Assembly (NCBI GenBank): GCA_913041895.1
Contig: CAJWKQ010000006.1
Span: 1-38,762, forward strand
Source of the DNA: an uncultured Verrucomicrobiales bacterium
Lineage (GTDB): Bacteria > Verrucomicrobiota > Verrucomicrobiia > Limisphaerales > UBA1100
Reading direction: 5' to 3'
Length of the DNA: 38,762 nt
In this document: piece by piece, positions 22,253-37,592 of the stretch
How positions within the stretch are numbered: position 1 is the first letter of the stretch
Layout of the letters: the number at the start of each line of letters is the position of its first letter
The notes under the pieces: generated by a model
The model's database searches: none
Told to the model about the DNA's origin: nothing
The model's input: the letters and a program-made list of their open reading frames with translations, nothing else
Translations under genes and position numbers: made by a program

Positions 22253-22329
22253 TTAGAGTTGTCAAAAATCATTCCAGATCTTCAGGCCCACTGCAAGCCT
22301 CCTTGAATCCTGAGTGTACCACGGGTAAA

Positions 22330-23565
22330 ATGGACCTCAAGATGGCCACTTTTGTTCAAAAAATTACATATATTTTATTTCTTACAATACTTTCCCTTGG
22401 TTGTATTAACTTGGCCGATACCTCACCGATCCGAGGAAAACAAACCCACCAGCCTTTTGACCTATCCAAACTGGAGTCCATCAAAACTGCGATCGCTAAG
22501 GGCCAAAGAGAAAAACGCTTGCCAGGGGGGGTGCTGTGGATCGAACACAAAGATTACAAATTTTACAAAGCTTACGGCAAAGCAAGTACAACGCCCCTTC
22601 ATTCACTCACACAGATTGGTACTATTTATGACGCCGCATCACTCACCAAGGTCGTCGCCACCACACCAGCCATCATGCTCCTCCATGAACGCAAACAATT
22701 AAATATTTATGATCCAGTAAAAAAACACATCCAGGAGTTCGATGGTGAAGGGCGTGATGAAGTTACAATTAAGCATCTCTTGACTCATACAAGCGGTCTA
22801 AGGCCGGATATCTCTATTAAAGGCTGGGAAGGTCACACCGAATGCATAGCAAAATGTGTTTCTGAAAAATTGCGCGCAAAACCGGGGGAAATATTTATTT
22901 ATAGCGACATCAATTTCCAACTGCTTGATGAAATCCTCAGGAGAATCACCAACCAAAGATTGGATATATTTTGTGAAAAGGAAATATTTAGACCCTTAAA
23001 AATGCATGATACGGGTTATAACCCGCCCACAGAAAAAATTGGCCGTATAGCACCGACAACAGTAACAGAAGGTAAGGTCCTCCAAGGAATCGTACACGAT
23101 CCAAGAGCGCGAAAAACGCAAGGGGTGGCTGGCCATGCCGGCCTTTTCACCACTGCACCAGATCTTGCACGTTACGCACGAATGCTCCTTCAAAAAGGTG
23201 AACTCGATGGAATACGCCTATTTAGTCCAACAACCGTAGATCTGATGACTTCCGTACAAACCCCACCTACCCTCACCGCCCGTCGTGGATTGGGATGGGA
23301 TATTGATACCGGTTATTCTAGCCCACGAGGCAACTTGTTTCCATTAGGCTCTTACGGGCATTCAGGTTTCACAGGCACCTCTATGTGGATTGATCCTTTT
23401 TCACAGAGCTTCGTCATTTTCCTTTGTAATCGTGTACATCCCACCGAAAAAGGCCCCAGCATCATTCCTTTGAGGCGAACTATTGGTACTCTGGCAGCCG
23501 AATCAATTCGAGGTTTTGAATTTAAGAACGTGCCTGGGGCTTTGCCTCCTATGAAAAAAGACTAA
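22330..23565 (+). CDS. beta-lactamase-fold serine hydrolase lipoprotein
   Basis: A class C beta-lactamase/penicillin-binding-like hydrolase of 411 residues. The start is ATG 22330 (an ATG at 22342 is also possible; a TTG at 22303 only lengthens the N-region). A signal peptide ends in the lipobox LSLGC (Cys25). The active site shows S-L-T-K (S104-K107), Y-S-D-I-N (Y191) and GHSGFTG near the C-terminus in place of KTG. LLTHTSGL is also typical. Relatives include esterases, D-amino-acid peptidases and transesterases; true beta-lactamase activity is unlikely. The stop overlaps the convergent unknown gene by 4 bp. Confidence 0.88.
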   Translation: MDLKMATFVQKITYILFLTILSLGCINLADTSPIRGKQTHQPFDLSKLESIKTAIAKGQREKRLPGGVLWIEHKDYKFYKAYGKASTTPLHSLTQIGTIYDAASLTKVVATTPAIMLLHERKQLNIYDPVKKHIQEFDGEGRDEVTIKHLLTHTSGLRPDISIKGWEGHTECIAKCVSEKLRAKPGEIFIYSDINFQLLDEILRRITNQRLDIFCEKEIFRPLKMHDTGYNPPTEKIGRIAPTTVTEGKVLQGIVHDPRARKTQGVAGHAGLFTTAPDLARYARMLLQKGELDGIRLFSPTTVDLMTSVQTPPTLTARRGLGWDIDTGYSSPRGNLFPLGSYGHSGFTGTSMWIDPFSQSFVIFLCNRVHPTEKGPSIIPLRRTIGTLAAESIRGFEFKNVPGALPPMKKD

Positions 23566-24155: not shown

Positions 24156-25646
24156 CTAATACTCCCTCTTCTTGGTAATACCCGGTTGCGGAGAGGGGTA
24201 AGACCCGTCTGCATTTGCCTTTACAGGCGCATCCCCATCAAGGCCAACAAGCTTCTCCAAATCCGGAGCCAGTGGCTCCGCATTCAACGCGTCATTCCAC
24301 ATCACGCGCTGTCCGGTATGCGCTGCCATTCGGCCTAGGTTGCACACCTGACTGGCAAGAGCACCGCGCTCGGCCTCATTGTATGGCTTATCATTTCGAA
24401 TGGCGTCTAATAAATCATCCCATTCATCCTGATAAGGATTAGTTTCTCGAGCCGGGAACTTCCATGTCTGGTTCTTTGGGTTAGGTGTCAGCCCGGTATA
24501 GAGTGCACTCGGCGCAGGCCAGTGACCATTCTTGGAAAAGGTTCCAAAACCCTTCGTACCGTGTATGTAACTGGCAAACTCGTTGTGGCACCCCTCGATA
24601 GTACGACCGTAATGCATCAGCTTGGTTCCATCGGCATAGGTGTATTCCACAGAATAGGTATCCAAGTTCTGGTCGACGTAGGGTTGGCCCTGATCATTCT
24701 CGGTGTAATGTTTACCTCCGGTAGCCTGAGCCATAATAGGCCAGGTCCATTTATCAAGTGTACCCATTACATTTAGAGGATCACCGCCCGTGTGCTCGGG
24801 GTCACCCATGGCTGCACCCTTCATCCAGCAGCATTCATCAATGTTGTGGATGTAGAAATCGTTGAAGCATCCGCCACTAGCCCAAATAAAGCTGTGGAAA
24901 CGACGAATCTGCCATCGAATTTCCTCTAAATCCTTATATTCATTTCGCAGCTTTTGCGGAATAGTCCGCGAGGAAGCCACTGGGCCGTGCATCCGGTAGC
25001 TACGCATGAGTACAACATCACCTATTGCGCCTTCCTGAATCTTATCAGCCATGGCACCGCGCGCCCGGCTATGACGGCACATGAGGCCCACACCCACCTT
25101 AAGGTTCTTTTTCTTGGCCAGCTTATTTATTTCCAGAATCTGTTTTGTCCCATAACCATCAGCAGTCACAGGTTTTTCCATGAATACATTGATCCCGCGC
25201 TCCACGGCATATTTATAGAAAACCCAGCGGAATGCCGGAGGCGTGGTGAAGATGGCCACATCGCCCTTATCTAAATTGTTAATGGCCTCCTTATATGCCT
25301 CAAACCCTATGTAGGCGCGCTCAGGTAAACCATTCTTACCCGTCTTACCGAGATCCACTTTTTCCTTATGCTTTTTTGAGAGTCCATTGAGACTACTCTT
25401 GAGGTTGCTCTCAAAAATATCAGCTGCAGCTACTAGTTTTGTGGGGCCGTGTCCGGCAGAAACCGATAAAGCATTACTTGCCGCACCCGTCCCACGTCCA
25501 CCCGCACCCACCAATGCGACCTTAACAGTATCATCTACAGCGGCATGTACGTGCGGAATGGCTACACCCGCTAGAGCCGAAGCGGCCGTTACCTTGCCCG
25601 TGGTTTCGATAAATTCACGACGGTTCTGATCTTGCTTTTTTGGCAT
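24156..25646 (-). CDS. Tat-exported Gfo/Idh/MocA-family oxidoreductase
   Basis: An NAD(P)-dependent sugar or inositol dehydrogenase-type protein of 496 residues. It has a Tat signal (N-R-R-E-F-I-E-T-T-G then AASALAGVAIPHVHA) and a Rossmann domain with V-A-L-V-GAGGRGTG. The family's catalytic EKP motif is in NVFMEKPVTADG, followed by the C-terminal beta-sheet domain. The start is ATG 25646, which leaves MPKKQDQNRREF in front of the Tat motif; TTG 25667 is the alternative. Tat export lets it leave with bound cofactor. It is on the same strand and downstream of the sulfatases, fitting sugar processing after desulfation, an inference. Confidence 0.9.
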   Translation of the reverse strand: MPKKQDQNRREFIETTGKVTAASALAGVAIPHVHAAVDDTVKVALVGAGGRGTGAASNALSVSAGHGPTKLVAAADIFESNLKSSLNGLSKKHKEKVDLGKTGKNGLPERAYIGFEAYKEAINNLDKGDVAIFTTPPAFRWVFYKYAVERGINVFMEKPVTADGYGTKQILEINKLAKKKNLKVGVGLMCRHSRARGAMADKIQEGAIGDVVLMRSYRMHGPVASSRTIPQKLRNEYKDLEEIRWQIRRFHSFIWASGGCFNDFYIHNIDECCWMKGAAMGDPEHTGGDPLNVMGTLDKWTWPIMAQATGGKHYTENDQGQPYVDQNLDTYSVEYTYADGTKLMHYGRTIEGCHNEFASYIHGTKGFGTFSKNGHWPAPSALYTGLTPNPKNQTWKFPARETNPYQDEWDDLLDAIRNDKPYNEAERGALASQVCNLGRMAAHTGQRVMWNDALNAEPLAPDLEKLVGLDGDAPVKANADGSYPSPQPGITKKREY

Positions 25647-25693
25647 GGGCTGAGAGTCGCCTTGCAAGTCTCAACCGTCAATAATAGATGCGT

Positions 25694-27124
25694 CTAATTA
25701 CCCAACGCTGCGGCCATTGCCGACTTGATTTCTGGCAAATCCGCGAAGGGATCCTTTTGAAGTTTACTGTATCTTCGTAATTGAGTGGTCATTTGAGTAA
25801 CAATCTTTTTTGATTTAGGATCATTAAATAGATTAATCATTTCATCGGGATCTTTCTCTAGATCAAAAAGCCACGGATCACCCATGTCCGAATAAACCAG
25901 TTTATAGCGATCACTCACTGCACAAAGCCACGGTTTTCCGGCACTAGTGGAGCGAATAAAGGCCATGTCATTCCAGTCGGTTTTAGATCCCGTAAAAAGA
26001 GTTGTTGCATCACGCCCATCGACCTTCTGTCCGTGCTTGATATTCATCAGGTTCATTACTGTAGGCATAAAATCAATGCAGCTTAAGGCCTCATTGACCA
26101 CGGTGCCGCCCTTGATTTTACCCGGTGTATAAATAAGGAAAGGAATACGTGCTGACCCTTCATATGGGACACCCTTGTTCAACCTTCCATGTTCTCCGCA
26201 GAGATCGCCGTGGTCACTGGTAAAGACGATGATGGTATTATCAATCTGCCCATTCTTGCGAAGCGTATCGAGAATACGCCCGATATTATCATCCAGACAC
26301 TTCACCATGCCGTAATACTTGGGCATGAGCACCCGAATGGTATCAGCAGTAATCCTAGGCGCTTTAGATGCCCACCTTGGAGTTTGCGCACGGGTTTTAT
26401 TGACTGAACGCGGGATAGGCGGCTTTACGTCCTCATACATGGTGTCGTAGGGCGCGCGCACGGTATTGGGGCCGTGCGGGTCAGGATAGCTCACCATGTA
26501 GCAGAAGGACTTGCCCTTTTTCTCGTTCACAAAGTTGATGACCTTGTCGGTGAGCCAATCGGTGGCGAAACTCTTTTCATCTGCGCCTTTCAAGCCGTAG
26601 TCAGGCCGACCATTCTTCGTGGATCCCACACGCGGCCCATTGGACCCATCAGCGAACATCTTCCAGTGGCCACGGTTGAACATGAACCGGTTATCTTCCC
26701 AGCCGAATTTACGTTTGGGCCCCCACTGTGGTTTTCCATCGCCATCCAGATGCCATTTACCGGCATAACCGGTGGCGTAACCCTCGCGGCGCAGTACCTC
26801 GGCAAAGGTAACGATGTTTTCACCCAGCTTGATATTGTTATTGGTTACAGGGGTATGTTGCGGGTACTTGCCGCTCATGAGTGCGCCGCGTGAGGGAGAG
26901 CAGACAGGTGTGGTGGCATAGAAACTGGTAGCGATGGCGCCATTCTTGGCAATCCAATCAATATTAGGAGTCTTAACGATTTTACCACCGTAACAGCCGA
27001 GCGTCTTGAAATGGTGTTCATCAGTCTGGATTACCAGCAGGTTGTAAGGGGACTTCTTATCCGCCGCAAAGGCAGAAAGAGAGAGGCACAGGATTACCAG
27101 AATGGTGTAAGTGTATTTCATCAT
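25694..27124 (-). CDS. exported sulfatase (S1 family, Cys-type), first
   Basis: A secreted sulfatase of 476 residues that should hydrolyse a sulfate ester on a glycan or aryl substrate. The Sec signal peptide is MKYTYTILVILCLSLSAFA. The formylglycine cysteine is Cys75 in V-C-S-P-S-R, then AGKWH (K123 and H125). Metal-site residues are in QTDEHH (D35), DPHGP (D215) and FTSDHGD (D304, H305). The TDEHH opening, with one Asp then Glu, differs from the usual DD pair. The start overlaps the Sel1 stop by one base (TGATG), so translation is probably coupled. The Cys must be converted to formylglycine by a maturase not in this window. Confidence 0.93.
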   Translation of the reverse strand: MMKYTYTILVILCLSLSAFAADKKSPYNLLVIQTDEHHFKTLGCYGGKIVKTPNIDWIAKNGAIATSFYATTPVCSPSRGALMSGKYPQHTPVTNNNIKLGENIVTFAEVLRREGYATGYAGKWHLDGDGKPQWGPKRKFGWEDNRFMFNRGHWKMFADGSNGPRVGSTKNGRPDYGLKGADEKSFATDWLTDKVINFVNEKKGKSFCYMVSYPDPHGPNTVRAPYDTMYEDVKPPIPRSVNKTRAQTPRWASKAPRITADTIRVLMPKYYGMVKCLDDNIGRILDTLRKNGQIDNTIIVFTSDHGDLCGEHGRLNKGVPYEGSARIPFLIYTPGKIKGGTVVNEALSCIDFMPTVMNLMNIKHGQKVDGRDATTLFTGSKTDWNDMAFIRSTSAGKPWLCAVSDRYKLVYSDMGDPWLFDLEKDPDEMINLFNDPKSKKIVTQMTTQLRRYSKLQKDPFADLPEIKSAMAAALGN

Positions 27125-29631: not shown

Positions 29632-30999
29632 CTAATTACCTTTTGGCGGACGCGGCATGGGGGCACCGGTTGCTTTAAGCCAAGTGGTAAGCTTTTTATT
29701 CAGGCGTGACGCGAGCTTGGGGTTTTGTTTCGCGACATTTTTCTCTTCGCTGAGATCCTTTGGAAGATTGTAGAGTTCCAGTGAATTGTCATCGTAATTG
29801 CGAATGAGTTTCCAGTCACCTTCACGAATGACACTGCCCAACCGGTTGTCCATGTGCCAGGCGTAGTTGGGGTAATGAAAATAAATCGCCTTGCGCTTTA
29901 ATCCCCCACTCTGACTGAAAAGTGGAAGGAGACTTTCACCATCAATGGGTTGCTTACCCGGCTTCAAGTTGGCCAACTCTAAGAATGTCGGATAAAAATC
30001 CATACTGATGACCGGTGTATCACATAAAGTACCTGGCTTCACTTTTCCCGGCCAGCGAACAATCATCGGCACACGAATACCACCTTCATAAAGGTGTCCC
30101 TTGGATTCCCGTAGCGGACGGCAATCAGACACTCCGGCAAATCCGCCATTGTCACTGGTAAAAATGACTAAAGTATTTTCCGCTTGGCCCATTTCATCCA
30201 GTGCCTTGAGCAACCTGCCAATCGCCACATCCATGGCTTCAATCATCGCACCATAACGCGTGTCATTGAGGCCCGGACCTTTCCGGTTGGCATATTTTTC
30301 AAGCAAGGGTTCAGGCGCCTGCATCGGCCAGTGCACCGTGTAAAACCAGAGGTGCGTCATCCACGGTTTGGATTTGTTTTTACCAATAAAATCAATCGTC
30401 TCATTAACCAGTCGATCAGGAAGATACTCACCCTTGGGCCCATCTTTGAGTTCCCCGTTGCGGTAGGGAGAGAAAAAACTGGGCGGCCCCCCATAGGAAG
30501 TGCCTCCAATATTGATATCAAAACCCTGTCCTATGGGCGAAAGCTCTGGAGCTACCTTCCCTCCCTTCCCTACACTCGAAGCAATATGCCATTTACCCAG
30601 AAAAGCACTTTTATAACCTGCTTCACGCATACGCTCAGCAATGGTGACATATTCGGTACTGAGCTGCTTGGCAAGGACGGCCGGTTGCGGACGGTTATCC
30701 TTCGGGAAATACATTCCCGGCAAATGTGTGGTAAGGCCAATTCGCGCAGGAGCCTGACCGGTCAATACTGCGCAACGGGTAGGCGAACACACTGGTGCAG
30801 CCGCATAGGCATCGGTAAACCGCATGCCCTGTTTCGCCAACCGGTCAAGATTCGGTGTCTCGACCAGTTTGTTGCCCTGACAGGCAAGGTCCATCCAGCC
30901 GAGGTCATCGGCCATGATGAAGAGGATATTGGGTTTGGCCTCTCTGGCCGAGAGAGAAACAGCCAACAGAAAACTTAGTAGTACAATTAATTGACCCAT
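29632..30999 (-). CDS. exported arylsulfatase-like sulfatase (S1 family, Cys-type), third
   Basis: A secreted sulfatase of 455 residues. The signal peptide is GQLIVLLSFLLAVSLSA. The metal site starts at FIMADDLGW (D31-D32). The formylglycine site is Cys71 in VCSPTRCAVLTGQ, with FLGKWH following. The second metal motif is FTSDNGG. The ADDLGW, CSPTR and SDNGG combination is the common arylsulfatase A-like form. A GGAG ribosome site (31005-31008) overlaps the end of the propeller gene and the ATG comes one base after its stop, so the two are probably coupled. A perfect hairpin lies downstream. Confidence 0.94.
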   Translation of the reverse strand: MGQLIVLLSFLLAVSLSAREAKPNILFIMADDLGWMDLACQGNKLVETPNLDRLAKQGMRFTDAYAAAPVCSPTRCAVLTGQAPARIGLTTHLPGMYFPKDNRPQPAVLAKQLSTEYVTIAERMREAGYKSAFLGKWHIASSVGKGGKVAPELSPIGQGFDINIGGTSYGGPPSFFSPYRNGELKDGPKGEYLPDRLVNETIDFIGKNKSKPWMTHLWFYTVHWPMQAPEPLLEKYANRKGPGLNDTRYGAMIEAMDVAIGRLLKALDEMGQAENTLVIFTSDNGGFAGVSDCRPLRESKGHLYEGGIRVPMIVRWPGKVKPGTLCDTPVISMDFYPTFLELANLKPGKQPIDGESLLPLFSQSGGLKRKAIYFHYPNYAWHMDNRLGSVIREGDWKLIRNYDDNSLELYNLPKDLSEEKNVAKQNPKLASRLNKKLTTWLKATGAPMPRPPKGN

Positions 31000-31000
31000 T

Positions 31001-31942
31001 TTATCTCCAGGTATTTTCCTTTATCGGCTTGCCATTGGTGGTGAGGATTTGAAAGTGATGAAAGCCGGCTTTTTGCCCCCTGTAACGCCACACGACCTTC
31101 TTATCACGCGTGACTTCAAACAGTTTCACTGAATCCCCTTTGGCGTGGTAACTGGTAATGACAGTATTGCCATTGGGAAGGCGCTGTACCCCGCAGGCAT
31201 CATCAAATAGGTTTTCTCCTATATCCCCATTATCCACACTCCAGATAATCTTACCCTTGGTATCCACTTCAATGACACGGTTTCCATTGGTGCAACCGAT
31301 GAGTGTGTTTCCATTGGCCAGACGTATACCTGTAAAGGGCCAATCACGCTTGCCCCGCCCCCGGTCATCAGTAGGAAAACTGCGCAATACCTCGCCGGTA
31401 TCTGGATTGTATTCCTTTACTGCAAAATCCAAGAGGTGTGGCGCAATGTAGTTGCCGTTGGGAAGTGCACGCAGCATGCGCGTCTGCATATGGAAATTCT
31501 TTTTCTGACAGGCAAGGGGTGTGGATTTTAGTATCTCGCCTTTACGGTTAATCACAATCGCACGGGGTTTGGGGCCTAGTTCAGCCACCAAATACTTCCC
31601 TGAACCCAAGGGTTGCACTGTGCTGATCTCCTTCTGCTGGCCTTTGTAGGACCAGACAATTTTTTTGGTTTTACGATCCACCTCCACCACTCCTCCATTA
31701 GGAAAACCCTTGGTAGCGTACAACGCCAATAACACGTTTCCATTGGATAATACCCAACCATCGCTTGCGGGCATATCTAAACGCCATTGCACCTTTCGGT
31801 CTTCACCCACAATCACCACACCGTTGGCCTTACCTGCTCCCAGAAATGAGTGTGTTATTGCTTCCTTGCCCTCTGAAGAAAGTGATGAAACGAAAATCGA
31901 TAGCAGAATTAGATAGGTCTTTAGATAAAATACGGGGTTCAT
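31001..31942 (-). CDS. exported arylsulfotransferase-like/PQQ-type beta-propeller
   Basis: An exported propeller of 313 residues. The start is ATG 31942, which opens a signal peptide (NPVFYLKTYLILLSIFVSS); a frame start at 32014 would add 24 residues with no signal character. Blades repeat the motif L-P-N-G-N-x-I/V/T (ALPNGNYI, LANGNTLIG and RLPNGNTVI) and K-I-V-W-S-Y or K-V-V-W-R-Y strands, as in arylsulfotransferase-type (ASST) and PQQ propellers. The active-site histidines of true ASST cannot be confirmed, so a structural or binding role is equally possible. It ends one base before the sulfatase start. Confidence 0.83.
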   Translation of the reverse strand: MNPVFYLKTYLILLSIFVSSLSSEGKEAITHSFLGAGKANGVVIVGEDRKVQWRLDMPASDGWVLSNGNVLLALYATKGFPNGGVVEVDRKTKKIVWSYKGQQKEISTVQPLGSGKYLVAELGPKPRAIVINRKGEILKSTPLACQKKNFHMQTRMLRALPNGNYIAPHLLDFAVKEYNPDTGEVLRSFPTDDRGRGKRDWPFTGIRLANGNTLIGCTNGNRVIEVDTKGKIIWSVDNGDIGENLFDDACGVQRLPNGNTVITSYHAKGDSVKLFEVTRDKKVVWRYRGQKAGFHHFQILTTNGKPIKENTWR

Positions 31943-32052
31943 GGTTTTAATTATCGGGGCTTGTCCGAGAAGAGAAACAGAATAAAGGGTTAATTCAAGT
32001 ATTGGTTGAACCAAAGGAAGCTTAAATTTGAGCTCTTTCTAGGTTCTAAACC

Positions 32053-33063
32053 TTATTCCATTGCATCCAATCGGACTTCCAGTTTCCTAACCTGTTTGAT
32101 CAAATCAGGAAGCTTAGGGAGGGATGCAATTTCCCTCTTCCATTGAGTATTGGGAACAACCGGAAATCCACTAACCACTGAATTGCTTTCAACATCCCGA
32201 AAGGTGCCGGACCTTGCAGTAAGTGTCACCTGATCTCCAAGCGTAACATGATCCCCCAACCCCACCTGCCCCGCCAACACGACGTGATGCCCTAAAGTTA
32301 CACTGCCGGCCAGTCCGACTTGAGACACTAAAATGGAGTGCTCTCCTACCGTGCAATTATGAGCCACCTGAACCAAATTATCTATTTTGGTTCCCTCCTT
32401 TATCAGGGTCGTATCAAAGGCCGCCCGGTCCACACAACTATTGGCCCCAATTTCAACGTGATCCTCAATCACCACACGGCCAACCTGATTGATTTTGAAA
32501 TGCCGACCCACTTCATCGACTGTATAACCAAACCCGTCAGCTCCAATCACCACTCCGGAGTGAAGGATAACGTGTTGGCCCAACTCCGAATTCCGATATA
32601 GGGTAACATTCGGATGCAGGATACTGTGATCTCCAATAAGACAGTTATCGCCAACCACCACATTGGCATGCAACACCGCCCCATCACCTATCACCACGCC
32701 ATTTCCAATACTAACCCCTGCGGCCAAAGAAATATTATCACCCAGCTTTACATTATCCCCAACGGCAACACTGGGATGAACTCCCAGCTTGGCAACCGGT
32801 TCGGGATGTAGCTCACTAATTATATGAGCAAAAGCCAGCTCCGGTTTGGCAACAATGATTTGGGGAAGGGATGTTTCGACTAACTCTGAAGTCAAGATCG
32901 CAGAAGCTCTACAATCATCCAAATATTCAATATATTTACTACTACCTAGAAAGGTAATATCCCCTTCTTTGGCGTCTTTCATCCCACGCACACCACTAAT
33001 TTCAATCGAAGGCTCTCCTTCCAAGGTGCCCCTAACCAATGCAGCAATTTCTCTAAGTTTCAT
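32053..33063 (-). CDS. lpxD: UDP-3-O-acylglucosamine N-acyltransferase
   Basis: Third enzyme of lipid A synthesis, transferring a 3-hydroxyacyl chain from acyl carrier protein to UDP-3-O-acyl-glucosamine in the cytoplasm. It has an N-terminal uridine-binding domain (about 1-95, with EGDITFLGSSKYIEYL) and a left-handed beta-helix of hexapeptide repeats (about 96-300). The catalytic histidine is probably His235 in VQVAHNCTVG. GADGFGY is a further family mark. At 336 residues it is normal length. The start is ATG 33063; a frame start at 33081 would add six residues. It shows that the organism makes lipid A-type lipopolysaccharide. Confidence 0.96.
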   Translation of the reverse strand: MKLREIAALVRGTLEGEPSIEISGVRGMKDAKEGDITFLGSSKYIEYLDDCRASAILTSELVETSLPQIIVAKPELAFAHIISELHPEPVAKLGVHPSVAVGDNVKLGDNISLAAGVSIGNGVVIGDGAVLHANVVVGDNCLIGDHSILHPNVTLYRNSELGQHVILHSGVVIGADGFGYTVDEVGRHFKINQVGRVVIEDHVEIGANSCVDRAAFDTTLIKEGTKIDNLVQVAHNCTVGEHSILVSQVGLAGSVTLGHHVVLAGQVGLGDHVTLGDQVTLTARSGTFRDVESNSVVSGFPVVPNTQWKREIASLPKLPDLIKQVRKLEVRLDAME

Positions 33064-33179
33064 AATTAATGCCCCAACCATTTTCCAAGCAGTAATTACG
33101 ATGAAAAATCACTGTCAAATTACGAATGAATGCGAAAACAAGAGAAACAGAATATTGGCTTATTACAAGCGTAGTTTGA

Positions 33180-34349
33180 CTAGGGCTTCTCAATTGCCAA
33201 CTGCACAAGCTTGAAAAATCGGTCGCGCAATATACTCCCCGAAGGGCTCTGGGTGAAAACCAGTACTATCAATTGATTCTTGGGATCCACCCAAGCAGCA
33301 GTTCCATCAGAACCCGTATGGCCATAAACACCATCCTTGTGCACACGCCAACCATAACCATAATAATGGGATTGTTTCATTTGTTCAGCAGGTGAATAGA
33401 GAGAAGCGGTGTGCGGGGTCGTTATTAATCTCACTGTCTCTGTCTTCAAAATTCTCTTACCTCCATAAATGCCGCCATTGAGATACATTTGACAAAACAC
33501 AGCATAATCCATTGCTGTAGAAATCATACCTCCCGAAGCCCGCACAAAGGGATACTTTGGAGATAAACCAGGCTTCCAGCCTTCTACCCATTTACCCTCA
33601 CGACGGTAATAAACAACCGACATACGGTCTAATTTTCCATCCAGTTTTTCAGCCACTTCATGATGATAACTGTCATCCATCCCAAGTGGTTCATAGATCA
33701 GGTGATCCAGATAGATTTCGAGCGGCTTACTTGAGACTGTCTCAACCACTGCACCCAGCGTGTTAAAACCTGCATTACTGTAACTGTAACTTTTTCCTAT
33801 AGGCTCGACTGCCCCAACTTCCCCAAAACGGTCCACCTCCAGTTTCAAGCTGGGTGCGTTTGGATGTTTGGCAGATTTTTCTATGAGTGGCTTAAAGAAA
33901 ATTGGTTTTATTCGAAAACCACTAGTATGAGTCAATAAATGATGCAGCGTGATCTCACTCGCATTGGAGTTATCGAAGGACTTGATATGGCGATGAACCG
34001 GGTTATCAAATCGCAACTTACCTTGCTCTTCCAAAATCGCGATGGCTGTCGCCACAACAGGCTTGGTATTGGATGCCATGCGAAACATGGCGGTTTTCTT
34101 GAGCGGAATACCACGCTCCTTGTCCTTCCATCCCAAAGCCTCATGCACAACCACCCGGCCCTTGCGGGCAATTAGGATCACCGCACTGCGCACCTCATCA
34201 CGCTCAATGGCTTTACGGTACATGTTCACCCCCGCTTCAAGAATAGTAGTATCCAAACCAACCTCTGAAGGTTTACCCAAGGATAATGTAAGGTCTGCAC
34301 CCTTAGCCGCCTGAAAACACAAAATTAGAATGAGGCAAAGCAGTCTCAT
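33180..34349 (-). CDS. exported beta-lactamase-fold serine hydrolase
   Basis: A class C beta-lactamase-like hydrolase of 389 residues with a Sec signal peptide (RLLCLILILCFQAAKG). The active site shows S-N-T-K (S93-K96), Y-S-N (Y190-N192) and GHTGSDG near the C-terminus. LLTHTSGF and VYYRREGKWVEGW are also typical of the esterase/peptidase branch. It overlaps the end of the cyanophycinase-like gene by 4 bp, so it is the last gene of a hydrolase group. It resembles the lipoprotein serine hydrolase at 22330 in plan, but the surrounding sequence is too different for a recent duplication. Confidence 0.9.
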   Translation of the reverse strand: MRLLCLILILCFQAAKGADLTLSLGKPSEVGLDTTILEAGVNMYRKAIERDEVRSAVILIARKGRVVVHEALGWKDKERGIPLKKTAMFRMASNTKPVVATAIAILEEQGKLRFDNPVHRHIKSFDNSNASEITLHHLLTHTSGFRIKPIFFKPLIEKSAKHPNAPSLKLEVDRFGEVGAVEPIGKSYSYSNAGFNTLGAVVETVSSKPLEIYLDHLIYEPLGMDDSYHHEVAEKLDGKLDRMSVVYYRREGKWVEGWKPGLSPKYPFVRASGGMISTAMDYAVFCQMYLNGGIYGGKRILKTETVRLITTPHTASLYSPAEQMKQSHYYGYGWRVHKDGVYGHTGSDGTAAWVDPKNQLIVLVFTQSPSGSILRDRFFKLVQLAIEKP

Positions 34350-35134
34350 TTAAGTCCTTTGAACTGAAACGTTTGGCCAGCTTTTAAAATATTCAGGCTT
34401 AAGTTCGATCCACTTTGGAGTTTTCCAGATTTGCCATTAGATATTTTGGCCTTTCGCGCGTCGATCACCACCACGCTACCTTTCCCCATGACAGTAAAAC
34501 TACCACCGCGAACGATAATTGCTGTCGCTTCACCTATACCAACCCCTATTCGGTCCGGATGATCCATAACTGCGCTTAAAAGCCGATCCATCCGGTGGCG
34601 GGCAATAAAGTGTTGGTCAATAATCAATTCGGGCACCAACCCCAGCCCTTTGGTAATTGGAGTATTGCCTCCTACCAAACCGGGCTTTTCAGGCGCATTG
34701 GGAATCATAACCTCAGACATAATGGCCGCACCCGCACTGGTCCCGGCAATGGGAACACCTGCGCGATGCCGCAAACGGATAAAATCCAATAACCCCGCCT
34801 TATCCAGCTCCTGATATAACTGCCTCTGGCTTCCACCGGGAAACCAGATGGCCGTAGCCTTATTTATCAGTGCACGCGCTTTCTTGGAATCATCCAGTGT
34901 TACGCTGTAAACCTCACCGGCTCCGAGCTTGGTATATACCTCTACGGAGGCCTCACCGCGATTGTGGCGGCTGGAGGCTTGAGGAAGAACTGCTATCCGC
35001 GCCTTTTTCCCGCCGGCAAGTTCCACAAACTGCCTGCGTACATTTTCCGGCGATCCCCCACCACCTACGATCACTAACGGACCAGATTCACCTGCATAAA
35101 GTGTATAACCCAAAAACAGAAATAGTAAACGCAT
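34346..35134 (-). CDS. exported cyanophycinase-like S51 peptidase
   Basis: A serine peptidase of 262 residues from the S51 family, related to cyanophycinase (cyanophycin to beta-Asp-Arg dipeptides) and aspartyl dipeptidase. The nucleophile is Ser133 in IAGTSAGAA. The substrate-site motifs are WFPGGSQ and I-I-D-Q-H-F-I-A-R-HRMDRLL. The start at ATG 35134 opens a signal peptide (MRLLFLFLGYTLYAGES); an ATG at 35164, directly after the metallo-hydrolase stop, would add 10 residues and is the alternative. Export suggests an extracellular polymer or peptide as substrate. True cyanophycin use is unproven. Confidence 0.88.
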   Translation of the reverse strand: MRLLFLFLGYTLYAGESGPLVIVGGGGSPENVRRQFVELAGGKKARIAVLPQASSRHNRGEASVEVYTKLGAGEVYSVTLDDSKKARALINKATAIWFPGGSQRQLYQELDKAGLLDFIRLRHRAGVPIAGTSAGAAIMSEVMIPNAPEKPGLVGGNTPITKGLGLVPELIIDQHFIARHRMDRLLSAVMDHPDRIGVGIGEATAIIVRGGSFTVMGKGSVVVIDARKAKISNGKSGKLQSGSNLSLNILKAGQTFQFKGLK

Positions 35135-35164
35135 CAGACAGTTATTACTCTTATCCCACGACAT

Positions 35165-36106
35165 CTAAAGTTCAACTCTTTCGCCTTGTACGGCAACGCG
35201 CATCCCCGCCTTCTCGATTTGCTTGGTGGCGACACTATTTGGATTATGAGCAGGGTTAGTATGGTTAAGATGAATAAAACGAACCTTTTGACGCAAAGAA
35301 TTCTGCTTGCCTTCTAAACGGCGTATTGTTTCAGCAATCAATGGATGTGGGATTTTTGACATATCCCGACCAGGCAATTCTCCTTGCGCATAAAATGTGC
35401 CATCCAAGTACGCAACATCTACACCACTCAACACCTTCTCTAGGGGAGTATTCCATTTTTCCCATTTATCAATATCAGGTAGCCATAATATTTTCTTTGA
35501 GGGCCCTTCGATTTGAAACCCAACCGTTTCAGAAAACTCATCGCGGTGTGGCACAAGAAAGGGGTAAACCTTGATTCTATTATTCAGATGAACTGGGCGA
35601 TTATCCCGCATGGTCTTAAGCTCAATATTCTTTAGTTCAACCAACTGACTCCAAGGCCCTTGAGTCCGAAGAAATTTCTCCATGCGCGGCATAACATGAA
35701 CCGGAACACTTTTAGCGCCCATCACTTCACGCCCCAGATGGATAAGCCCAGCATAATGTCCAATGTGGGCGTGGGTGAGCATGATACCATCGATTTTCCC
35801 CTCTAACTTTGGATAGGCACCATCCAGTCGACCAACCTGACGGGGGAAACTAGGGGTGCACTCGATAAACCAGCGTTGGTTTGTTACCGGATCAACAATC
35901 CCCAAGCTTGCGACATCACGACGTCTTGATACATCCTCCCATAATCCTTTACAGCAATCCTTTTTACAGCCCGCTTGAGGATACCCTCCATCCTGCGCCG
36001 TTCCCAATACCACAGCAAATGGGCTATCCTTTTGCGCCGAGGAACACATTGAGACCAAGCCAAATGTTGACCAACTGGAGTTAATGATAAAATTTCTACG
36101 ATCCAT
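35165..36106 (-). CDS. PqqB-like metallo-beta-lactamase-fold hydrolase
   Basis: A metallo-beta-lactamase-fold protein of 313 residues, in the PqqB-like branch by the LGTAQDGGYPQAGC opening and a cysteine-rich KKDCCKG segment. The metal motif reads THAHIGHYAGL (H112, H114, H117): the usual Asp of HxHxDH is Gly, so one metal site may be altered. Other ligands may be in VPHRDEF, LPDIDK and LNHTNPAHN. The N-terminus (DRRNF, then a hydrophobic stretch ending SMC) looks like a weak Tat or lipoprotein signal. It ends directly before the cyanophycinase-like gene. No PQQ synthesis genes are nearby, so a PqqB role is unlikely. Confidence 0.85.
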   Translation of the reverse strand: MDRRNFIINSSWSTFGLVSMCSSAQKDSPFAVVLGTAQDGGYPQAGCKKDCCKGLWEDVSRRRDVASLGIVDPVTNQRWFIECTPSFPRQVGRLDGAYPKLEGKIDGIMLTHAHIGHYAGLIHLGREVMGAKSVPVHVMPRMEKFLRTQGPWSQLVELKNIELKTMRDNRPVHLNNRIKVYPFLVPHRDEFSETVGFQIEGPSKKILWLPDIDKWEKWNTPLEKVLSGVDVAYLDGTFYAQGELPGRDMSKIPHPLIAETIRRLEGKQNSLRQKVRFIHLNHTNPAHNPNSVATKQIEKAGMRVAVQGERVEL

Positions 36107-36128
36107 AGTAGCTACCTTTTAGCTACCC

Positions 36129-37445
36129 TTACCTACTCGGCGGCCGATGAGCCGGAATCTGAGCTTTAAAATCGCCCAAGCTGTGCCAATAGATACGTTT
36201 ATTTAAATCTACTTCGCTAACGGCAACTGAACCCCAATCTTTTGCCTGTGCTAGAGGCTTCCCATCATGGCCATAAATAGCGGATATCATCCAGTTACGG
36301 GACGCATCAGTATACGTACTACTAATAACGTAAACATGGTTTTCACAGGCACGTGCCGCCCCCAGCATGGGATTACACCCCCACACGGGCCATGCAATAA
36401 TCTCAGCCCCGTTATTGCTTAAGTTGCGGGCAACCTCGGGGAAAAATCCATCATAACAAACCATCATACCTACCTTTCCGAATCGCGTTTGAAAAACAGG
36501 ATATGTTTTACCCGGTGAAATTCCTCCTTCTATCTCACCTCTCGGGAGACATACTTTTCTATATTTACCAACAACACTGCCATCCGGGCCGATGAGTACC
36601 GCAACATTGTAAATTAAATTTGCATCACGTTCGAGAAGCCCCGCTACAAGGTAAAGATTATGTTTCTTGGCTAGCCTTCCAAAATAATCAGTGGACGGCC
36701 CAGGGATAGACTCAGCACATTCAGCAAAGGTACGACCGCTATGATAATATGTGAGTGTCTCGGGCAACACCACCAAATCAGCCTTGCTCCCTGCGGCATC
36801 AGCGATCAGTGGTGCAAAGAGCTTACACTTTTCAGTATTTGATTTACCCGCACGCGGCTGAAAATGAATCGTGGCCAATCGCACCTTGCGAGGCTTCGGT
36901 TCGGCGACTGGTTTTATCGAGACATGTCTCCAACTTACCCGACCATCATCCAACCAACGCAGGCAAAGTTCCACTTTTACTTGTGTAGCAGCCTTTGGCG
37001 CACGGAAGATTTCGAGCACCTCATCCCAGCCACCGCGAGTCATTGCACCTGTCATGCGAGGGAATTCTGGCTCTGCTCGAGGCGCTGTGCCAGGCCGATA
37101 AGAGGAATACGTCGGCTCATCACGGTTTACTTTATTGCCAGCAGCATCCAGCCAGATCAATCGTTCGACTACGTGCCGCTGCACATTTTGCCTATCGATA
37201 TCCCATGTTTTCCGGGCCGCAGAAAAGCGGTAGTAATGCCCGCCCTTCACCGAAAAATGCGCCTGCCACTGACCTGTAGCACCTGAACGTCCCCCAGCAT
37301 CAATTTGAAGGACCCCATCGTCATGTTGAAATTTCGGGCTAAGTTCCTGCCTCGGCGAATGCGATTGCCATAATCCATCACTTTGAGCAGCAAAAAACTC
37401 ACTGGATAAGACAAAGAAAAACACAGCTATAACAACGGATTTCAC
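36129..37445 (-). CDS. exported carbon-nitrogen hydrolase with N-terminal jelly-roll domain
   Basis: A nitrilase-superfamily amidase of 438 residues fused to an N-terminal sandwich domain. The catalytic triad is E229 (V-V-L-P-E-T-L), K297 (K-Y-R-K-V-C-L-P) and C330 ([12 protein letters not shown]). Residues about 20-185 form a carbohydrate-binding-like jelly roll ([20 protein letters not shown] and [17 protein letters not shown]) before the hydrolase (about 188-438). The chosen start is GTG 37445 because it opens a tidy signal peptide ([20 protein letters not shown]); TTG 37481 is the alternative and adds 12 residues. A secreted amidase with a binding domain is unusual, as most nitrilases are cytoplasmic. 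It lies 22 bp before the metallo-hydrolase. Confidence 0.87.
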
Positions 37446-37592
37446 GCAACTCAGACTAACGTCTCCAACATATAGTGGCAACCTTTGTCGCGTTTTCTAA
37501 CTACAAAACAATTAAAAGTAAAAAGCTGGGTGTATGATACAGGTTAGGCCACTCTACTCTAAAAGGGCGCTGAAATCGCGTTAAAATCTTTG

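Follow-up and report, generated by a model that had tools for sequence, protein, structure and literature searches.

Use of cyanophycin from outside the cell has been proposed before. For Ca. Sulfomarinibacter, an external substrate has already been argued from an exported cyanophycinase in genomes that lack a synthetase, and one metagenome-assembled genome (MAG) of this group has an isoaspartyl dipeptidase (available text of PMC8528874). The dipeptide beta-Asp-Arg is cleaved by IaaA enzymes (available text of PMC10206079), and for the cyanophycinase CphB the accessible part of PMC3235067 names Ser132 and the pocket residues Gln101, Asp172, Gln173, Arg178, Arg180 and Arg183. Here we analysed a 38,762-nt stretch of DNA from an uncultured Verrucomicrobiales bacterium (the window), which makes up all of contig 6 in a genome of 3.17 Mb (G000, completeness 81.5%); isolate names of its relatives suggest a marine origin. 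At 33180–37445 it carries genes for a nitrilase-superfamily protein (NIT), a PqqB-like metallo-hydrolase (MBL), an S51 peptidase (CPH) and a serine beta-lactamase-fold hydrolase (BLA), which the original prediction took for four exported enzymes acting stepwise on one compound. On balance, we favour a different reading, in which the four genes form a modular and accessory segment of a conserved sulfatase locus, including an exported scavenging cyanophycinase, and not a fixed four-step pathway.

The four genes are intact and lie head to tail on the minus strand with gaps of 22, 0 and –4 bp: NIT at 36129–37445 (GTG start, with an in-frame TTG also upstream at 37481), MBL at 35165–36106 (PqqB-like metallo-beta-lactamase fold), CPH at 34346–35164 (cyanophycinase type) and BLA at 33180–34349 (S12/esterase-like). 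All score above the Pfam cut-off for their families (CN_hydrolase, Lactamase_B_2, Peptidase_S51 and Beta-lactamase, respectively). Export-type N-termini, called by visual inspection only and with no signal-peptide program, are Sec-like in NIT, CPH and BLA and of the twin-arginine type in MBL, where this start is clearest in the sister genus, as TRRQFL. The tight group had thus been described correctly in coordinates, strand, gaps and families, and the proposed export of all four agrees with these N-termini. The description was slightly too narrow: the same-strand run continues past BLA with a second lpxD paralog (lpxD2) after 98 bp, a PQQ beta-propeller gene (PQQ2) after a further 38 bp and a sulfatase gene (SULF) after 1 bp, and these three co-linear genes had been left out. 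Beyond SULF lie further sulfatases and a Gfo/Idh-like gene. Promoter and terminator scans stayed within the range of shuffled sequences (10 versus a mean of 12.1; 11 versus 9.7) and are uninformative on operon limits.

Gene-neighbourhood comparison found the combination in only one Verrucomicrobiota family. The order NIT-MBL-CPH-BLA occurs in 3 of 9 searched genomes of the window's genus (G000, G002 and G007), each time as NIT-MBL-CPH-BLA-LpxD2-PQQ2-SULF. In the sister genus PQQ2 is placed between NIT and MBL. There, MBL-CPH-BLA is preceded by PQQ2 in two genomes, G019 (NIT-PQQ2-MBL-CPH-BLA-LpxD2-SULF) and G015 (PQQ2-MBL-CPH-BLA-LpxD2, on a short contig). This recurrence speaks against a chance grouping. 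Two more genomes have no BLA beside MBL-CPH: G014, in which NIT-PQQ2-MBL-CPH precedes a DUF1501 gene and, where the contig ends, the beginning of a sulfatase-like frame, and G016, with PQQ2-MBL-CPH and no NIT match. The arrangement is reduced to NIT-PQQ2-MBL-SULF in G017, which has no CPH, BLA or lpxD2 ortholog; its PQQ2 is broken into two frames (L056:10727–11675) and may be decaying or mis-assembled. G012 has NIT-PQQ2-SULF, and NIT directly adjoins SULF in G001, G003 and G008 of the window's genus; none of these four genomes has an MBL, CPH or BLA match. Among 20 family genomes, the same five have orthologs of both BLA and lpxD2 (Fisher test, P-value 6e–5, uncorrected for kinship). More widely, 9 genomes out of 320 from the order have MBL matches, and the window's family accounts for 8 of these (own genome included); of 387 genomes drawn from the phylum, 4 have one (own counted), the other three being weak (24–33% identity). 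For CPH, 16 of 98 genomes have a match of some kind, with orthologs at 60–89% identity only in the family. The closest homologs outside it reach 52% (L262) and 45% (L263), with no NIT, MBL or BLA match in the surrounding DNA, which for L262 covers only 1.2 kb upstream. The four genes are therefore neighbours in relatives of the window as well, although this holds for one family only and the sets vary.

We also compared the surroundings of MBL outside the family. A contig scan returned 536 MBL relatives, and the best 80 were analysed, 7 from the family and 73 from outside; the latter are a top-ranked sample, many of its loci truncated by contig ends. By record titles and taxonomy, many of the 73 belong to Planctomycetota and Marinimicrobia, and others to KSB1, Acidobacteriota, Bacteroidota and Gammaproteobacteria. 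CPH lies beside MBL in 6 of the 7 family genomes but at 0 of the 73 sampled loci outside the family, although an S51 homolog occurs somewhere in 28 of the 50 searched genomes of those 73. Hence, the MBL-CPH pairing is special to the family in this sample. An LpxD match or an adjacent BLA match was likewise found in the DNA around none of the 73. A PQQ2 homolog is present at two of these loci, a nitrilase-type gene lies 3.4 kb away at one, and a beta-lactamase-domain gene lies more than 2 kb from MBL at five; the one tested (L099) is a GH3 fusion. Neighbour clusters, named after one Pfam-tested member each, further include a redoxin (9 loci), an AMP-binding enzyme (11 loci) and sulfatases.

Divergence changes abruptly inside the block between two congeners, G000 and G002. 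Their synonymous difference is 0.70 for NIT and 0.65 for MBL, versus 0.24 for CPH, 0.39 for BLA, 0.25 for LpxD2, 0.33 for PQQ2 and 0.20 for SULF; between G000 and G007 it is 0.25–0.41 over the seven genes. The simplest reading is that the G002 lineage underwent recombination, with a break between MBL and CPH. Between genera (G000 versus G019), values are 0.74 for NIT, 0.85 for MBL, 0.79 for CPH, 0.88 for PQQ2 and 0.73 for SULF, and lower at 0.59 for BLA, 0.46 for LpxD2 and 0.56 for the sulfatase at 25694–27124. Relative to G015 and G019, BLA-lpxD2 differs by 0.44–0.65 in G000 and G007 and by 0.36–0.53 in G002. A later transfer of BLA-lpxD2 between genera is only suggested, because the sulfatase is similarly low.

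Overall, a backbone of NIT, SULF, a second sulfatase and the Gfo/Idh-like gene occurs without the remaining genes, and PQQ2, MBL, CPH and BLA with lpxD2 occur in different combinations by genome. The claim of stepwise action on one compound fared poorly in this comparison: NIT stands beside SULF with no MBL, CPH or BLA in three genomes of the genus, MBL is found without CPH and BLA in G017, and BLA is missing next to MBL-CPH in G014 and G016 and follows lpxD2. Because of these varying sets, the jump in divergence between MBL and CPH, and the lack of CPH neighbours outside the family, a single four-step pathway is unsupported. More generally, tight spacing in one genome is compatible with a locus of changing composition and need not indicate a fixed pathway.

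Several observations weigh against the modular reading. The spacing of 22, 0 and –4 bp suggests co-transcription and fits a shared process. MBL is immediately ahead of CPH in all seven genomes where this could be read (G000, G002, G007, G014, G015, G016 and G019; in G018 CPH is cut by the contig end). Single absences are weak evidence, as most of the genomes are incomplete. Gain and stepwise loss would give the same distribution of genes. In 78% of the genomes having a cyanophycinase gene, it clusters with cphA1, iaaA or iadA, and in 30 of 32 genomes that have cyanophycinase and iaaA but lack cphA1 these two are clustered (available text of PMC10206079), but iaaA in the window's genome is on a contig other than that of CPH. 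Across the family, IaaA does not significantly track CPH (present in 7 of the 8 CPH-bearing genomes and in 6 of the 12 others; Fisher test, P-value 0.16). We therefore set IaaA aside as a CPH-tracking gene, the association being a trend at most.

Among the four, CPH is the only protein for which a substrate can be proposed with any confidence. It passes the NCBI cyanophycinase model TIGR02069 (175 bits, cut-off 126.6), and the solved structures closest to it are those of the cyanophycinases 3en0, 7uqw and 7uqv. In CphB, His174 and Glu201 complete the catalytic triad, and these numbers fit the alignment offset. Nine CphB-equivalent positions are kept in CPH (Q113, S143, D183, Q184, H185, R189, R191, R194 and E212, with S143/H185/E212 as the triad), and all nine are invariant among 7 aligned orthologs. 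The position of CphB Arg183 splits the S51 proteins compared into an Arg and an Asp type, and the window's CPH is of the Arg type. Arg is found in 3 of 8 S51 homologs from the same order and Asp in the other 5; elsewhere, among 33 readable distinct S51 domains from MBL-bearing genomes, Arg occurs in 13 and Asp in 20, with Ser or Thr at the Gln173 position in 3 of the 13. These counts exclude degenerate first S51 domains without the catalytic Ser and omit L018, L019 and L024, which are fragments or repeats of used loci; L235 and L261 are the same protein. The family's long S51 paralogs have Asp in 5 of 5 cases, and the one from the window's genome (113.3 bits) falls under the TIGR02069 cut-off. 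Among the proteins compared, this residue is thus a one-position marker, and we infer that the Asp-type proteins are not cyanophycinases. Tandem two-domain S51 proteins were seen in five Planctomycetota records (L235, L236, L239, L240 and L241), with Arg in the first domain and Asp in the second.

No cyanophycin synthetase was found above cut-off in the 15 of 20 family genomes searched. CPH is probably an exported, apparently scavenging cyanophycinase, predicted to hydrolyse cyanophycin to beta-Asp-Arg, and as such it adds an enzyme of this kind in Verrucomicrobiota. The cyanophycin-like substrate that had been proposed for the whole group is, from the score and the checked residues, reasonable for CPH but lacks support for the four genes jointly. 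In a search of titles and abstract openings for cyanophycinase with Verrucomicrobia, none dealt with this cluster. Under the modular reading, CPH outside the cytoplasm would be a serine beta-aspartyl exopeptidase trimming cyanophycin, a nitrogen store made and released by other microbes, or a similar beta-linked Asp-Arg polymer, to beta-Asp-Arg. From this dipeptide, an exported peptidase of the IaaA type, whose gene is on another contig, would then release Asp and Arg. The sole PF01112 match in the window's genome (Asparaginase_2, IaaA-type) is at G000:C78, and an exported-looking IaaA is present in G002 too. In the window's genome the IaaA-type gene overlaps an M28 peptidase gene by 4 bp (L229:3613–5957), and both have export-type starts. 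The roles that we suggest for the other genes are less supported: NIT and the sulfatases might share a sulfated, amide-bearing compound as substrate, MBL may be an exported metallo-hydrolase with PqqB and PhnP as relatives, and BLA could be an S12-type peptidase or esterase travelling with lpxD2.

An alternative is that the entire locus, together with its sulfatases, breaks down a single sulfated N-substituted glycan or glycopeptide; CPH and MBL would then attack the peptide or ester groups attached to it. SULF (29632–30999, minus strand; PF00884, 205.5 bits; CSPTR site) is conserved near NIT. The second backbone sulfatase (25694–27124, minus strand; PF00884, 189 bits) and the Gfo/Idh/MocA-like protein (24156–25667, minus strand; PF01408, 27.3 bits, cut-off 24) were assigned to the backbone by synteny. 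PQQ2 (31001–32014, minus strand; PF22701, 47.5 bits) is a Mal s 1-like/PQQ beta-propeller. NIT and SULF occur together in both genera, PQQ2 and SULF are intermingled with the four genes, and at two planctomycete loci (L067 and L101) MBL has a sulfatase-type gene no more than 40 bp away. However, no glycoside hydrolase or lyase is present among the tested genes of the block and the backbone below it, and there are three sulfatase genes in the window alone, so proximity to a sulfatase is weak evidence. We consider such a joint glycan pathway unlikely.

A somewhat lower probability falls to the proposal of a stepwise extracytoplasmic pathway in which NIT, MBL, CPH and BLA degrade or edit a single polymer rich in amide or isopeptide bonds. 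Close spacing on a single strand, export-type starts and an identical order in three genomes all speak for it, as do ratios of nonsynonymous to synonymous divergence (dN/dS) that are low throughout (0.055–0.191 across the four genes, computable pairs only). Against it, the members are separable in relatives, MBL lacks a CPH neighbour outside the family, and no IaaA-type dipeptidase gene lies within the block; this pathway is improbable on the present comparison.

MBL gives a Lactamase_B_2 match of 65 bits, and its structure model (predicted local distance difference test, pLDDT, 92.1) has PqqB as the best fold match (Z 31.2). We rejected its assignment as PqqB, with 103.7 bits for TIGR02108 versus a cut-off of 245 and a metal motif that differs from that of PqqB. 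In the motif HAHIGH, the three His (His112, His114 and His117) and the Gly are invariant in 40 of 40 aligned sequences, comprising the window protein and 39 of the best 80 relatives; most of these start, by eye, like signal peptides, lipoproteins or twin-arginine substrates. Matches of MBL to SAKe designed proteins in phmmer were ignored, their scores being summed from one short repeated stretch. By these sequence features, MBL is a member of a widespread exported family distinct from PqqB, for which the name PqqB is unsuitable. The comparison thus singles out a PqqB-like HxHxGH family without a known reaction; among titles and abstract openings retrieved for PqqB-like with metallo-beta-lactamase, none concerned it. 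One could imagine MBL acting before CPH outside the cell, where it would strip a modified cyanophycin-like polymer of a substituent that blocks CPH. We regard this as very improbable, but if true it would open an exported family, with its 536 relatives in one scan, to a reaction different from that of PqqB.

Nine of the 80 loci (L081, L089, L091, L094, L096, L097, L099, L105 and L107) have a NamZ-type gene upstream of MBL. Seven of the nine are titled Marinimicrobia, one bacterium TMED144 and one an acidobacterium; a GH18-type gene is present in eight, and among members tested GH20 was confirmed at L089 and the GH3-beta-lactamase fusion at L099. The gene content of these loci points to a setting of cell-wall sugar recycling. 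Peptidoglycan turnover at the window's locus, in which BLA would be a D-amino-acid carboxypeptidase or endopeptidase, NIT an amidase and MBL a muropeptide enzyme, with lpxD2 serving the envelope, would agree with those loci and with the co-occurrence of the envelope-type lpxD2 with BLA, but it is just as improbable as MBL preparing the polymer for CPH, given that MBL has other neighbours (redoxins, AMP-binding enzymes, sulfatases) in other groups, that the checked cyanophycinase pocket is kept in CPH and that NIT is associated with sulfatases.

BLA scores 203 bits for PF00144 and has SNTK at 93, YSN at 190 and HTG at 344, matching the SxxK, YxN and HTG motifs of the serine beta-lactamase/S12 fold. 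The class C beta-lactamase model NF033085 was not satisfied (49 bits, cut-off 415). LpxD2 (32053–33081, minus strand) exceeds the cut-off of TIGR01853 (370 bits versus 242.5) and is 40% identical to the genome's lpxD copy at G000:C45; its co-occurrence with BLA prompts one to ask whether there is a second lipid A-type acylation. On its plus strand, the window has a further serine beta-lactamase-fold gene at 22303–23565 (PF00144, 207.6 bits). Small proteins encoded near the locus at L027:5502–6200 and L031:10511–11290 give zinc-peptidase-type Pfam matches of 20.8 and 20.1 bits, under the cut-off of 27.4.

NIT has a CN_hydrolase domain (PF00795, 145 bits), preceded by about 180 N-terminal residues with no Pfam match. 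Its E229, K297 and C330 are invariant among 12 aligned homologs and correspond to the Glu-Lys-Cys catalytic triad of the nitrilase superfamily. Ten NCBIfam families matched NIT, none above cut-off (best 109.9 bits versus 500). The structure model was of too low confidence for a fold search (mean pLDDT 54.9) and gives no assignment for the N-terminal part. NIT is classed as an exported nitrilase-superfamily amidohydrolase.

Compared with known systems, NIT shares its catalytic domain with the nitrilase-superfamily protein PH0642 (PDB 1j31) but is exported, has the extra N-terminal part and reaches no NCBIfam equivalog cut-off. MBL has a fold in common with PqqB (TIGR02108; PDB 4z7r and 6e13; Z 29–31 at 22–23% identity), and both have the GG-P-C-C and HxNxTNP regions. 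However, HxHxGH is invariant in the MBL family, while the PqqB chains 4z7r and 6e13 have no HxH at that place, and MBL has an export-type start and a score far under the PqqB cut-off. The next fold matches of MBL are PhnP-family and Apyc1 phosphodiesterases (Z 23–25.5, 13–25% identity), with a Z range of 23–25.6 when related AMP/GMP-bound proteins are included, and nothing in our data on MBL points to a nucleotide or phosphate substrate. CPH resembles cyanophycinases (TIGR02069; CphB and CphE; PDB 3en0, 7uqw and 7uqv) in family score, Ser-His-Glu triad and pocket residues, and its export has a parallel in CphE (available text of PMC3235067). Clustering with such partner genes is usual for cyanophycinases but no requirement; there is no cphA or iaaA beside CPH (iadA was not searched), and its flanks are the PqqB-like MBL and a serine beta-lactamase-fold gene. 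Ca. Sulfomarinibacter belongs to a different phylum, and the available text of PMC8528874 makes no mention of an MBL, nitrilase or BLA neighbourhood, but its MAGs combine Sec-exported cyanophycinases with the lack of a cyanophycin synthetase, like the genome that carries CPH.

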